DNA of 35,304 bases from Actinomycetota bacterium (GTDB lineage Bacteria; Actinomycetota; UBA4738; HRBIN12): the NCBI GenBank assembly GCA_035640355.1, contig DASQWI010000028.1:1-35304 (forward strand). The letters run 5' to 3'. Below the pieces are notes generated by a model. It saw only the letters and a list, made by a program, of their open reading frames with translations. It was not told the origin of the DNA and did no database searches. Made by a program: the position numbers and the translations under genes. How positions within the stretch are numbered: the stretch's first letter is position 1; each line of letters begins with the position of its first letter. Below, piece after piece: positions 23,516 to 27,495 of this stretch.

Positions 23516-24208
23516 TCAGCTCGGAACGGCTGGATCGATGAACCCGGTACGCTTGTGCCGGCCGTCGCAGAACGGCTTGTTGGCCGAGTTTCCGCACCGG
23601 CAGAGCGTCTGTCGGTTCCGCACCTCGTACGGCGTTCCGTCCTCCGAGACGACTGGGATGCCGCCCCGGAGCCAGTACGACGCGTTCGGCTCCACGCCGA
23701 TCGACGGCTCGAGCTCCGGCTCGACCAGCGTGTCGGGGTCGTCGTCCGTCGCGAACGCGAGCCGTCCCGACGGACACTGATGAACCATCGCCACGAACTC
23801 CCCCCGCGCATCGGGATCGTCCGCCTCGCCGGCGAGCGTCCATACCGTGGTGCGCAGGTTCGTGCAGAACCCCGCGTGCGTGCAGATCGTGCGGTCGTCG
23901 TAGAGCACGACGCCCTTCCCCTGCCACGGCTCGCGGCGTCGCGCGATCGGTCCCCTGTCGGCGACCTCCGTTCCATCGAACCCCAGGCGTTCGCACACGT
24001 GATCGCAGAACGGCTTCGTCTCCGACATGCCGCACCGGCAGAGCTCATACGTGTCCGGAGTATCGAAGTCTGGACCTTCGTCCCACGCGATCGGCTCGCC
24101 GTGCTCGGTCGTCACGATCGCGGTTCTGAGCAGCCGGATGTCGCCCTCGACGCGGTACGGGCCGCCGCGTTCGACGACGACGCGGCGTGCGGCTTGGGGT
24201 TCGGCCAT
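23516..24208 (-). CDS. Iron-sulfur protein with two CDGSH-type motifs flanking a 4Fe-4S-mono-cluster-like module
   Basis: A 230-residue protein with three Cys-rich modules. The first, at residues 57-72, is Cys57-x-Cys59-x8-Cys68-x3-Cys72. The last, at 203-218, is Cys203-x-Cys205-x8-Cys214-x3-His218, the standard three-Cys/one-His CDGSH pattern that binds a 2Fe-2S cluster. In the first module the ligand-His position is Cys72 (CDHVC instead of CDGxH), with a His at 70. Between them, TICTHAGFC (Cys109, Cys115) and HQCPSG (Cys145) resemble the Fer4_19 single-cluster domain that often accompanies CDGSH motifs in bacteria. It is presumably a cytosolic electron carrier or redox sensor. The gene starts 11 nt after the MFS stop and is the last member of an arsR-MFS operon. 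There is no close Shine-Dalgarno, and coupling is likely. Confidence 0.88.
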   Translation of the reverse strand: MAEPQAARRVVVERGGPYRVEGDIRLLRTAIVTTEHGEPIAWDEGPDFDTPDTYELCRCGMSETKPFCDHVCERLGFDGTEVADRGPIARRREPWQGKGVVLYDDRTICTHAGFCTNLRTTVWTLAGEADDPDARGEFVAMVHQCPSGRLAFATDDDPDTLVEPELEPSIGVEPNASYWLRGGIPVVSEDGTPYEVRNRQTLCRCGNSANKPFCDGRHKRTGFIDPAVPS

Positions 24209-24219
24209 GACCGCCGAGT

Positions 24220-25452
24220 CTACGCGGCCTCCGTCGAGACCAGTTCCGGCCGGCGGTCGAGGTCACGGAGGGCGGTGCTGAACCGTGCTCCGACGGTGAT
24301 CGTGAGATATGCGGCGCCGCTGAAAAGGAGGGTCGCGCGAAGACCGATGGCCTCGATCACGGCGCCCGCGACCAGAACCCCGAGTGGGATCGCCACCCAC
24401 GCGGCGGCCTGCGTCACGCCGAACACGCGACCCCGCATCCAGGCCGGCACGCGCTCCATGAACACCGTGTCGATCACCGGGTTCAGCGGCCCAGAAGCGA
24501 GGCCCGAGATCGTCTTCGCGACGAGCAACACCGCCAGCGGCGGGAAGAACGCGGCGACGGGGAACGACAGGGTGACCAAGATGAACCCCCACGTGAACAC
24601 GGCTCGGCGCGACAACCGGTGCCCGACCGCCGCGAACGCCAGCGCGCCGAGCACCGAGCCCGCGCCGCCCGCCGCCGTCATGAGTCCGAGGCTGAGCGCG
24701 CTCTCGTAGATGTCGTGAGCGAGGACCGGGAGCGCGATCATGGCCACGGCGTCGAACAGGTTCGTCAGGCTCACGATGAAGACCAGCACGGCGAGGGTGC
24801 GGTCGGCACGCAGGAACGCGTAGCCCTCGCGGAGCTCTCGGCGGTACGACGTCTTCCTCGGCTCGCGTACGACGGCCGGTCGGGGAACGCCCACCGCGAC
24901 GAGCGCCGCCGACACGAGGAACGAAGCGGCGTCGATCCATAGGACGTTCGTCGCTCCGGTCGCCGCGATGAGAACGCCGGCGAGGGGCGCGCCGGCGAGG
25001 CGAGCGAACCGTTCGACAACCGCGGTCGACCCGGTTGCCCGCTCGAAGCTCCATCCGGCGCTCGCGGCGACGTCGGGCAACAACGCCGCGCGAGCCGTTC
25101 CGCCGGGCGCGTCGAGCAGGCCACCCAGGAACACCAGCACGACGAGCTGCCAGAACTCGAGCCCCACCGTCGAGTGCAGCAGCGGGATTGCGGCCACGGC
25201 CACCGAGCTCGCGAGGTCCGCGACGATGCTCGTCCGGCGGTAGCCGAGACGGTCGACGAGCGCCCCGCCGAACAGACCCGAGAGGACGACCGGGAGCAGT
25301 CCGGCAAACGCCGTGATGCCCGTCTTCGTTGCGCTTCCGGTCGTCTGGAGCACGAACCACGGGATGGCGACCAGCGCGGCGACGTTTCCCGTTAGCGAGA
25401 CGGCGTTGGCCGCGAACAGGGCGAGAAGCGGCGCGCGTCCGCGCGCCTTCAA
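24220..25452 (-). CDS. MFS transporter, DHA3-type exporter
   Basis: A 410-residue, 12-helix major facilitator of the DHA3/MefA-like type, related to macrolide and enterobactin exporters. It opens LLALFAANAVSLTGNVAALVAIPWFVLQTTGSATKTG. GLFGGALVDRLGYRRTSIVADL contains motif A (G-x3-D-R-x-G-x-R-R). The sixth-helix/loop region carries RELREGYAFLRADRTL, characteristic of the family, and the late motif VPAWMRGRVFGVTQAAAW is typical of DHA3. The start is TTG at 25452 and overlaps the TGA of the regulator gene (TTGA), so translation is coupled to it. Control by the ArsR-family protein encoded upstream points to an inducible efflux role. The ligand cannot be inferred. Confidence 0.9.
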   Translation of the reverse strand: MKARGRAPLLALFAANAVSLTGNVAALVAIPWFVLQTTGSATKTGITAFAGLLPVVLSGLFGGALVDRLGYRRTSIVADLASSVAVAAIPLLHSTVGLEFWQLVVLVFLGGLLDAPGGTARAALLPDVAASAGWSFERATGSTAVVERFARLAGAPLAGVLIAATGATNVLWIDAASFLVSAALVAVGVPRPAVVREPRKTSYRRELREGYAFLRADRTLAVLVFIVSLTNLFDAVAMIALPVLAHDIYESALSLGLMTAAGGAGSVLGALAFAAVGHRLSRRAVFTWGFILVTLSFPVAAFFPPLAVLLVAKTISGLASGPLNPVIDTVFMERVPAWMRGRVFGVTQAAAWVAIPLGVLVAGAVIEAIGLRATLLFSGAAYLTITVGARFSTALRDLDRRPELVSTEAA

Positions 25453-26024
25453 TTCGTCCCCCGGCGCCGTGGGTACAGGTGGACGACGGCGGCGACGCGT
25501 TCCGAACCCGGATGGCGCCCGGCGCGGCGGCGCGCGATCACCTCGTGCAGCTCATCGCGAAGCTCGCGCAGCTCCTTGGGCGTGAGCTCGAGGATCCAGT
25601 CGCTCATGTCGGCGGCGTCCACCCATTCGGCGGGCCACGTGTGGGTGCTGGTGACCCACTCCATCGCGTGGTTCGCCTGCGCTCGGACGATCTCGCGGCC
25701 GAAGGCCTGCTCGGCGGCGACGCGCTCCGGGGAGTCGAGGAACTCGACCGTCGACCAGCTCGTCCGCTCGTGGGACGAGCGCCACCACCGTTCCTTGCCG
25801 TCTCGGGCAAGATCGGGGGCCTCTTCGATGAATCCCCGATCGGAGAGCTGACGAAGGTGGTAGCTGGCAAGCGCCGGGGACACGCCGAGTCGTTCAGCCA
25901 GCGCCGTGGCCGTCGCCGGGCCGTCGGCCCGCAGGAGACCCAGCAGGCGCAGGCGCAGCGGATGGGCGAGCGCCCGCATCTGGGCCGGCTCGGTGAGCCG
26001 GAGTGTGCTCGGTTCGGGCGCCAT
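25449..26024 (-). CDS. ArsR-family (HTH_20) transcriptional regulator
   Basis: A 191-residue regulator with an N-terminal winged helix: MRALAHPLRLRLLGLLRADGPATATALAERLGVSPALASYHLRQLSDRGFIEEA, in which the recognition helix is ALASYHLRQL. A 100-residue C-terminal part (WWRSSHERTSWSTVEFLDSPERVAAEQAFGREIV...) is typical of the larger ArsR-like regulators that bind organic ligands rather than metals; the CVC-type metal motif is absent. The ATG at 26024 is preferred to longer readings because it gives the usual short N-terminus. A perfect palindrome begins 2 nt upstream of the A of this ATG and covers its ribosome-binding region, indicating autorepression. The last codons overlap the downstream MFS gene. 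It very probably controls the whole regulator-MFS-CDGSH operon. Confidence 0.9.
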   Translation of the reverse strand: MAPEPSTLRLTEPAQMRALAHPLRLRLLGLLRADGPATATALAERLGVSPALASYHLRQLSDRGFIEEAPDLARDGKERWWRSSHERTSWSTVEFLDSPERVAAEQAFGREIVRAQANHAMEWVTSTHTWPAEWVDAADMSDWILELTPKELRELRDELHEVIARRRAGRHPGSERVAAVVHLYPRRRGTN

Positions 26025-26025
26025 G

Positions 26026-26045
26026 TTCGAAAGGATACTTTCGAA
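26026..26045. promoter_or_regulatory. Perfect palindromic operator at the arsR start
   Basis: TTCGAAAG-GATA-CTTTCGAA is a perfect 8-bp inverted repeat with a 4-nt spacer. It lies directly upstream of the regulator's ATG (26024), over the position of its Shine-Dalgarno. The size and symmetry fit ArsR-family operators, so binding should block both transcription and initiation. It is also 104 nt upstream of the divergent SpoIID-type gene and could affect that promoter. Confidence 0.65.
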
Positions 26046-26135
26046 AGGGTCGTTTCGCAACCGTAACGCGTTTTTCGCGGCCACGAGCCCGTCGGGGGTT
26101 CCAGGGGTTCCAGTCCTGCCCGAGAGCCTCGTTGG

Positions 26136-26141
26136 TAGCGT
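26136..26141 (+). promoter_or_regulatory. Putative -10 box before the SpoIID/LytB lipoprotein gene
   Basis: TAGCGT is followed by exactly 7 nt and then the GTG at 26149, the spacing of a leaderless transcript. There is no Shine-Dalgarno. A -35 hexamer is not evident. Confidence 0.35.
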
Positions 26142-26148
26142 GGGCACC

Positions 26149-27495
26149 GTGGTCGTGCGGAAGCGCCCGCTCGTCGCCGCCACCCTGGCGATCCTCGTGC
26201 TCGCGGCGTGTGGCCAACCCGGTCCGGCGGATCGGACGAGGCGAACACCGGGTTCGACGTCGAGCGCGAGCCAGCCCTCAGCGTCTGTCGACTCGTCGGG
26301 CTCGCCGTCGCCGAACGCGCGCGCCCCGATGGACCCAGATTCCGTTCGAATCGCGGCGCCCGGGGGCGGTTCGCTGCTCCTCCGAGGCGGATACCCCCAC
26401 GTCGCCTCTCCGTGCATCGATCCCGAACCGAGGCGATTGCTCGCTCGCTATCCCGGCACGCTCCTGGTGCGTCGATCCGACGACGGAACGCTGAGGCTGG
26501 TCGTCACGCTGCCGTTCCAGGAGTACCTCCAGGGCATCGCCGAGGTACCGCCGTCCTGGCCGGGCGAGGCACTCAAGGCGCAGGCCATCGCGGCGCGGAG
26601 CTACGCATTGGCGACGACCGGGTGGAGCGGGCAAGAGGGTGAGACGCTCGACACACCGATCTGTGCGACGACCGCCTGTCAGGTGTACCGAGGCATCCCC
26701 GTTCCGTTCGAGCCGAACGTTCGGCGCTGGTACCGAGCCGTTCGCCAGACCGCCGGTCTAGTCCTGCTCTTCGAGGGACGACCGGCCACGACGGTGTACT
26801 TCTCAACCTCGAACGGACAGACGTACGGCAACGAGGACGTGTTCGGCAGCTCGCCGCTCCCCTATCTCCGCCCGGTCGTCGAGAACGACGACGGTGCCTC
26901 GCCGACGTCGAGGTGGCGCGTTCGCCTGCCCTTCGACGATGTCGCGACGTTCCTTGCGGCTGCGGGCGATTGGCCCCGGTCACGTCCGGTCACGGACGTG
27001 CGGTTCCGTGACGGCAGGTTCGTCGTCTCGAGCCACGCCCGGACGCGGTCGATCGAGTCCAGCACGTTCCGCGAGGGGATCAACGCGTGGGCGCCGTGCC
27101 TGGAACCCGCCAACTATCCGCCGCCGAGCAGGTTCGGCTCGCCCCTTCCGACGACGATCCCGTCTCGATGGCTGAGCGCGTCCTCCGAGCGCGGCGCGTT
27201 GATCATCTCGGGGCGCGGCTGGGGCCACGGCGCTGGGATGGTGCAGTGGGGCGCGTACGGCAAGGCGCGGCGGGGCCTGTCGGCCGCCGATATCCTCGCT
27301 TTCTACTACGGAGGGTTGCGCCCCGAGGCCTATCCGCAGCCGGGGCGGATCCACGTCCAGGTCGCCGAGGGCATCACCGAGCTCCGCGCCGTTCCGTCCG
27401 ATGTCGGGGCCACGGTCGACGGCCGTGAGGTCGGCCTGGCCCGGATCTCCGTCGCCGGCGGCGAATCCCTGCAGGTCGAGGTGGAACCGCGATAG
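26149..27495 (+). CDS. SpoIID/LytB-domain lipoprotein
   Basis: A 448-residue exported protein. The N-terminus VVVRKRPLVAATLAILVLAAC is a lipoprotein signal with Cys21 as the lipidation site, followed by a Ser/Pro/Thr-rich linker to about residue 65. The SpoIID domain has its hallmark TLPFQEYLQGIAEVPPSWP then GEALKAQAIAARSYALA, including the Glu of AEVP that corresponds to the proposed catalytic Glu, and the closing GRGWGHGAGMVQWGAYGKA with AADILAFYYGG. The family acts on peptidoglycan glycan strands (lytic transglycosylase or amidase enhancer). Outside sporulation such proteins are common in Actinomycetota and presumably remodel the wall. Start candidates in frame are GTG 26140, 26149 and 26155; 26149 is chosen for the spacing to TAGCGT and the signal-peptide length. 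Divergent from the arsR operon. Confidence 0.9.
   Translation: MVVRKRPLVAATLAILVLAACGQPGPADRTRRTPGSTSSASQPSASVDSSGSPSPNARAPMDPDSVRIAAPGGGSLLLRGGYPHVASPCIDPEPRRLLARYPGTLLVRRSDDGTLRLVVTLPFQEYLQGIAEVPPSWPGEALKAQAIAARSYALATTGWSGQEGETLDTPICATTACQVYRGIPVPFEPNVRRWYRAVRQTAGLVLLFEGRPATTVYFSTSNGQTYGNEDVFGSSPLPYLRPVVENDDGASPTSRWRVRLPFDDVATFLAAAGDWPRSRPVTDVRFRDGRFVVSSHARTRSIESSTFREGINAWAPCLEPANYPPPSRFGSPLPTTIPSRWLSASSERGALIISGRGWGHGAGMVQWGAYGKARRGLSAADILAFYYGGLRPEAYPQPGRIHVQVAEGITELRAVPSDVGATVDGREVGLARISVAGGESLQVEVEPR

Follow-up and report, generated by a model that had tools for sequence, protein, structure and literature searches.

A protein encoded on an actinobacterial contig carries two CDGSH iron-sulfur sites that differ in the residue at the fourth-ligand position: the C-terminal site has the usual histidine, the N-terminal site a cysteine. 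The gene lies on the minus strand of the window (the whole 35,304-nucleotide stretch of DNA that we analysed) at positions 23516 to 24208, with its ATG at 24208 and its stop at 23516, and is the one CDGSH gene found in that genome. We think it probable that the product belongs to a known class, type 7 subtype CDC, and that its N-terminal [2Fe-2S] site switched from three cysteines and a histidine to four cysteines on the stem of its genus. At the level of sequence, the comparisons below establish that the fourth-ligand residue switched, that among sampled CDC proteins the switch is confined to the genus, that purifying selection acts on the gene and that the loop has kept its length.

The 230-residue protein has a CISD - Fer4_19 - CISD layout. 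A Pfam search gives two zf-CDGSH matches (E 1.5e-31) and, between them, a single Fer4_19 domain (E 2.6e-10), which we take to be the family formerly called DUF1271. The N-terminal CDGSH domain, residues 8-81 (23966 to 24187), retains an intact G16-P17 lid-proline motif. Its cluster loop, residues 57-72 (23993 to 24040), reads CRCGMSETKPFCDHVC and follows the pattern C-x-C-x8-C-x3-Cys, with C57, C59, C68 and C72 as predicted ligand residues. The C-terminal loop, residues 203-218 (23555 to 23602), reads CRCGNSANKPFCDGRH, a standard C-x-C-x8-C-x3-His with predicted ligands C203, C205, C214 and H218. The C-terminal site has the 3Cys-1His ligand set; the N-terminal site, with Cys72, is a non-canonical variant. 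The preliminary description had noted that the two sites align position for position. They do, and all the residues it named, including C109, C115 and C145 of the middle module, are in place. The protein contains ten cysteines, every one at a predicted ligand position, with none to spare.

This layout is not new. Lin et al. (2011, PMC3174974) describe type 7 subtype CDC as two CDGSH domains around DUF1271, then counted in 31 species. The window protein, in which two CDGSH domains flank Fer4_19/DUF1271, shares that layout and its type 4-like domains, and our tree places it inside such proteins; it differs in having Cys rather than His at the N-terminal site and Ala-Ser rather than Gly-Pro in the C-terminal domain. 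One degenerate motif is present, the same paper states, in 17% of type 5 and type 6 proteins; roughly half of these have Cys in place of His, and the Cys may still bind a cluster. Type 7 goes unmentioned in that statement. Proteins of types 5 and 6 with one degenerate site are like the window protein in having a natural His-to-Cys change in one of two sites. Type 6 is unlike it in that the tandem motifs lie about 20 residues apart, without DUF1271 (PMC3174974). Has a Cys fourth ligand been described in type 7? We found no statement of one among the papers matched on CDGSH together with DUF1271, Fer4_19 or bacterial four-cysteine sites, and neither 'CDHVC' nor 'CDGSC' occurs in the main text of PMC5859297.

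How widely is Cys72 distributed? We retrieved 80 relatives of the window locus, added further ones from searches of class and phylum genomes, and retained those whose protein has two CDGSH motifs in a single frame, separated by 130-165 residues. Eighty-two passed, the window protein included; split, truncated or oddly spaced proteins were left out. At position 72 of the N-terminal site, 79 of the 82 have His, two (from one genus) have Glu, and the window protein alone has Cys, while position 218 is His in all 82. Cys72 is present too in G001, the sole other species of the genus sampled. Its protein (locus L082) is outside the 82 because a contig end cuts it at residue 179; over residues 1-179 it is 97% identical to the window protein. 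In a tree of 83 proteins, for which the bootstrap was not fully settled, the two proteins with Cys group together (100/100), and their sister (99/89) is L083, a His-bearing protein of the sister genus (CDDTH; 63% identical). The two Glu proteins form another clade, and the Cys clade is nested inside His-bearing proteins. This topology is best explained by one gain of Cys72 on the stem of the genus; the residue is lineage-restricted, since homologues outside the genus have His or Glu.

The preliminary description had drawn attention to Cys at the ligand-His position, which both species sampled from the genus have. It had also pointed to a His at position 70; G001 has Arg there, and we rejected His70 as a conserved alternative or extra ligand. 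It would have counted against itself an isolated change to Cys among His-bearing homologues. One half of that picture is what we find, since homologues outside the genus have His or Glu at 72, but the other half is not: with G001, the Cys is no single-sequence oddity. In genus g19, of the same order, the orthologues L086 (G023) and L087 (G025) read CDGSE at the N-terminal site, with Glu at the ligand position.

The fold around Cys72 appears unaltered. An AlphaFold2 model built with a 45-row alignment (mean pLDDT 95.1, pTM 0.90) keeps the type 4 CDGSH fold there. The type 4 structure 3tbm aligns to residues 8-81 with an rmsd of 1.2 Å over 60 of 61 residues and a Z of 7.1, middling by the VIA-align scale, and the type 3 structure 3tbo aligns to residues 168-228 with 1.2 Å over 44 residues (Z 4.0). 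By sequence, Foldseek and VIA-align alike, 3tbm is the top PDB match, as expected of a type 4-like fold. Foldseek alone gives it an E of 2.5e-3, the next match being no better than 1.7. We did not read a family's absence from the VIA list as its exclusion.

What would a cysteine at this position do? All known NEET proteins use 3Cys-1His, according to a 2018 review (PMC6006223), and the consequences of replacing the histidine have been worked out by mutagenesis. In mitoNEET, NAF-1 and At-NEET the His-to-Cys change keeps the cluster and stabilises it, also at acid pH, and shifts the potential from about 0 to +30 mV towards -300 mV (PMC6006223). Transfer to apo-anamorsin slows more than 10-fold (PMC4598119), and the cluster lability of the H87C variant is unaffected by raised temperature (PMC8463382). 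These variants (mitoNEET H87C, NAF-1 H114C and At-NEET H89C) match Cys72 in both the position and the nature of the ligand change. They differ in being engineered, and in being homodimers with identical sites; the window's change is natural and sits beside a standard site in one chain. Cys72 looks like the natural counterpart of a well-studied laboratory mutation.

A second natural instance occurs in family f13, whose proteins have a Fer4_19-like sequence followed by one CDGSH domain (a DC layout) with Cys as the fourth ligand. Its loci L106/L130 (G049), L131 (G074) and L133 (G085) read CDG[AT]C, with almost no sequence beyond the motif: the C-terminal ends are ...NPFCDGACGIDHSA in G049 and ...APFCDGTCGCSP in G074, and G085, where the gene is interrupted, reads ...APFCDGACGCSP. 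G063, of the same family, has CDGTH, that is, His. Judged by layout, family and this His-bearing neighbour, the f13 Cys clade appears separate from the window's genus. G049 and G074 are 51% identical over the matched region, and the Cys is kept across two genera. Having outlasted far more divergence than is found within the window's genus, the f13 cysteine is the better evidence that a four-Cys site can be functional and kept. Among the genomes sampled here, natural sites of this kind were seen in no more than a pair of related species and, apart from them, one further small group.

Pattern searches of whole genomes suggest how rare such sites are. Two of 396 genomes, G000 and G001, contained a match to a DNA pattern encoding C-x-C-G-x-(Ser-like)-xx-K-P-x-C-D-xx-Cys. 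With the last position opened to His, Cys, Asp, Glu, Gln, Arg, Gly, Tyr or Trp, the same search gave 115 sites in 86 of the 396 genomes, 113 with His and two with Cys as counted by eye; sites that differ from the pattern at other motif positions escape such counts, for example those of the Glu proteins, which have QP rather than KP. A looser pattern, with Phe or Tyr after Pro and Lys not required, matched the three f13 genomes G049, G074 and G085 among 197 genomes around G049. Among 395 genomes around G398 (Candidatus Nanopelagicales, L034) it gave four matches: those three and G001. The identity of the matches returned indicates that this last sample is from the same phylum as the window's samples, Actinomycetota; the phylum samples overlap under different handles and their counts are not additive. 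In 299 genomes of Pseudomonadota, the phylum of Dyella, a relaxed four-Cys pattern gave five matches that we take as chance: L125, the one translated, comes from a frame of 51 residues, and the remaining four, judged by eye, lack the KP[FY]CDG context; the pattern does not cover all type 5 and 6 motifs and therefore says little about the known Cys variants there.

Could Cys72 be a sequencing or assembly error? The window does come from a 29-contig assembly. But codon 72 is TGC both there and in G001, a separate assembly with other differences nearby, and TGC lies two base changes from CAC, the His codon in the sister L083. For these reasons Cys72 is not a base-calling error; G001 refutes an artefact of any such kind, and we give the idea practically no credence. 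A more serious rival is relaxed constraint: the N-terminal site may have lost its specific role in this class, Cys72 being one of several tolerated residues with no selected new property, in a site that may or may not bind a cluster. The site is the less constrained of the two in this class, as drift would predict, with CDDTH, CDASH, Glu at 72 in genus g19 and many residues other than Gly or Ser at 70-71; in most pairs within the class the C-terminal CDGSH domain shows the higher conservation; and the gene was matched in just 14 of 27 class genomes at E <= 1e-20, being absent or not detected in many members. Against this, the other three cysteines of the N-terminal site do not vary across the 45 rows of the alignment. 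Conservation between the window protein and L083 is 0.66 for the N-terminal domain, 0.43 for Fer4 and 0.78 for the C-terminal domain, and the N-terminal domain of the window pair is at least as well conserved as that of other pairs. The window and G001 genes differ by 12 synonymous and 6 nonsynonymous changes over 179 codons (dN/dS 0.15); on these counts the gene is under purifying selection, and because the comparison spans a dS of only about 0.1, the persistence of one codon within the genus says little. Engineered His-to-Cys proteins, moreover, keep their cluster, and f13 keeps its Cys across genera. We regard relaxed constraint as somewhat unlikely.

The site might instead bind zinc or another metal in a structural role. 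The Pfam domain is still named a zinc finger, and a loop offering four cysteines would be suitable for Zn. Yet in fold and loop the domain matches [2Fe-2S] CDGSH domains, and the engineered four-Cys versions hold [2Fe-2S]; we consider a zinc site very improbable. We return, then, to a ligand switch in a site that would still bind [2Fe-2S], now through four cysteines. Such a cluster would be stable, ferredoxin-like and of low potential, would show no coupling of electron to proton, and would not be readily given up. By analogy with the mutants, the N-terminal site should hold an electron-carrying, non-donating cluster. The preliminary description had proposed clusters of different potential in one protein, and this is plausible because the same change in mitoNEET and NAF-1 gives a stable cluster of much lower potential.

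The middle module, approximately residues 93-160 (23729 to 23932), looks like a [3Fe-4S] site by motif and by model. Its C109-x2-A112-x2-C115...C145-P146 fits CXX?XXC(X)nCP with a non-Cys residue, Ala112, at '?'. Across the 78 of 82 proteins that could be parsed, this residue is Ala in 65, Ser in 11, Val in one, Ile in one and Cys in none. Ala or Gly is common there in [3Fe-4S] ferredoxins and Cys in [4Fe-4S] ferredoxins (Child et al. 2018, PMC6237146). The modelled module aligns with 8AMP, the [3Fe-4S] ferredoxin Fdx of Mycobacterium tuberculosis (PMC9868604), at 2.1 Å over 54 residues (Z 4.3). It thus shares motif and fold with the [3Fe-4S] ferredoxins (Child 2018, PMC6237146; 8AMP), and differs in being fused between two CDGSH domains. 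Given this motif and alignment, the '4Fe-4S' of the Pfam label is probably wrong here, and the module would hold a [3Fe-4S] cluster.

The C-terminal domain has changed as well. The lid-proline or P motif of CDGSH domains is Gly-Pro (Lin et al. 2011, PMC3174974), and among aligned relatives Gly176 is found in 81 of 81 and Pro177 in 79 of 81, the other two having Gly. The window protein reads Ala176-Ser177 (23678 to 23683). G001 also has Ala-Ser and L083 has Gly-Pro, so both CDGSH sites changed on the same branch: loss of the lid-proline appears to accompany Cys72, with the N-terminal site altered in its ligand and the C-terminal site in its lid. Lin et al. (2011, PMC3174974) describe certain type 4 proteins that have Ser where the proline belongs, so the lid change has a precedent. 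The C-terminal site would hold a normal His-ligated cluster under a more open lid, and the protein as a whole would most likely be a small soluble multi-cluster electron carrier.

Were the two sites of one chain retuned differently on one branch, giving, with the [3Fe-4S]-like module, three chemically distinct clusters? We raise this tentatively and consider it rather unlikely. If true, the N-terminal site would be a four-Cys, ferredoxin-like store of low potential, the C-terminal site would keep its His without the lid-proline, and three distinct clusters in 230 residues would amount to a built-in redox ladder; the parallel f13 clade would then show actinobacteria repeatedly evolving NEET-type folds into ordinary ferredoxins. 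Natural His-to-Cys changes in types 5 and 6 (2011) and laboratory ones in mitoNEET and NAF-1 were already known, and the window protein is a real variant, conserved in its genus, of a known layout, with likely chemistry that is well precedented. The f13 clade and the lid-proline change, both of which, like the [3Fe-4S]-like motif, the preliminary description had overlooked, add slightly to its interest. Four-Cys versions kept by evolution would allow a direct test of what the histidine is for, by comparing Cys and His orthologues in lability, potential and transfer, and the window protein carries an internal control in its own His-bearing C-terminal site.

Gene context was set aside as a clue to function. 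An MFS efflux-type transporter gene (MFS_1, MFS_3; 24220 to 25452, minus strand) lies upstream, 11 bases before the CDGSH start codon, preceded by an ORF with an ArsR-type HTH domain in its C-terminal half (25449 to 26417, minus strand); from 24220 to 26417 the two lead into the CDGSH gene, all three being on the minus strand. The HTH-MFS-CDGSH arrangement is kept in G001 only. The window neighbours that were tested had no match in nine other family or order regions, a weak null because each region is either short or truncated at a contig end. A Ferritin-like partner was likewise set aside: two distant relatives from Pseudomonadota that were tested (L009 and L070) have the CDC module fused behind a Ferritin-like PF12902 domain, and PF12902 had no match in the window genome. 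A second two-CDGSH protein was also observed (L088:1779-2612, L085:2058-2615, L103 and L110), without a Fer4_19 match in the two scanned. Its first motif is degenerate in all four (CDREA, CDRDE, CDREP, CDRPA) and its second keeps His; in G006 and G014 it adjoins the CDC gene.
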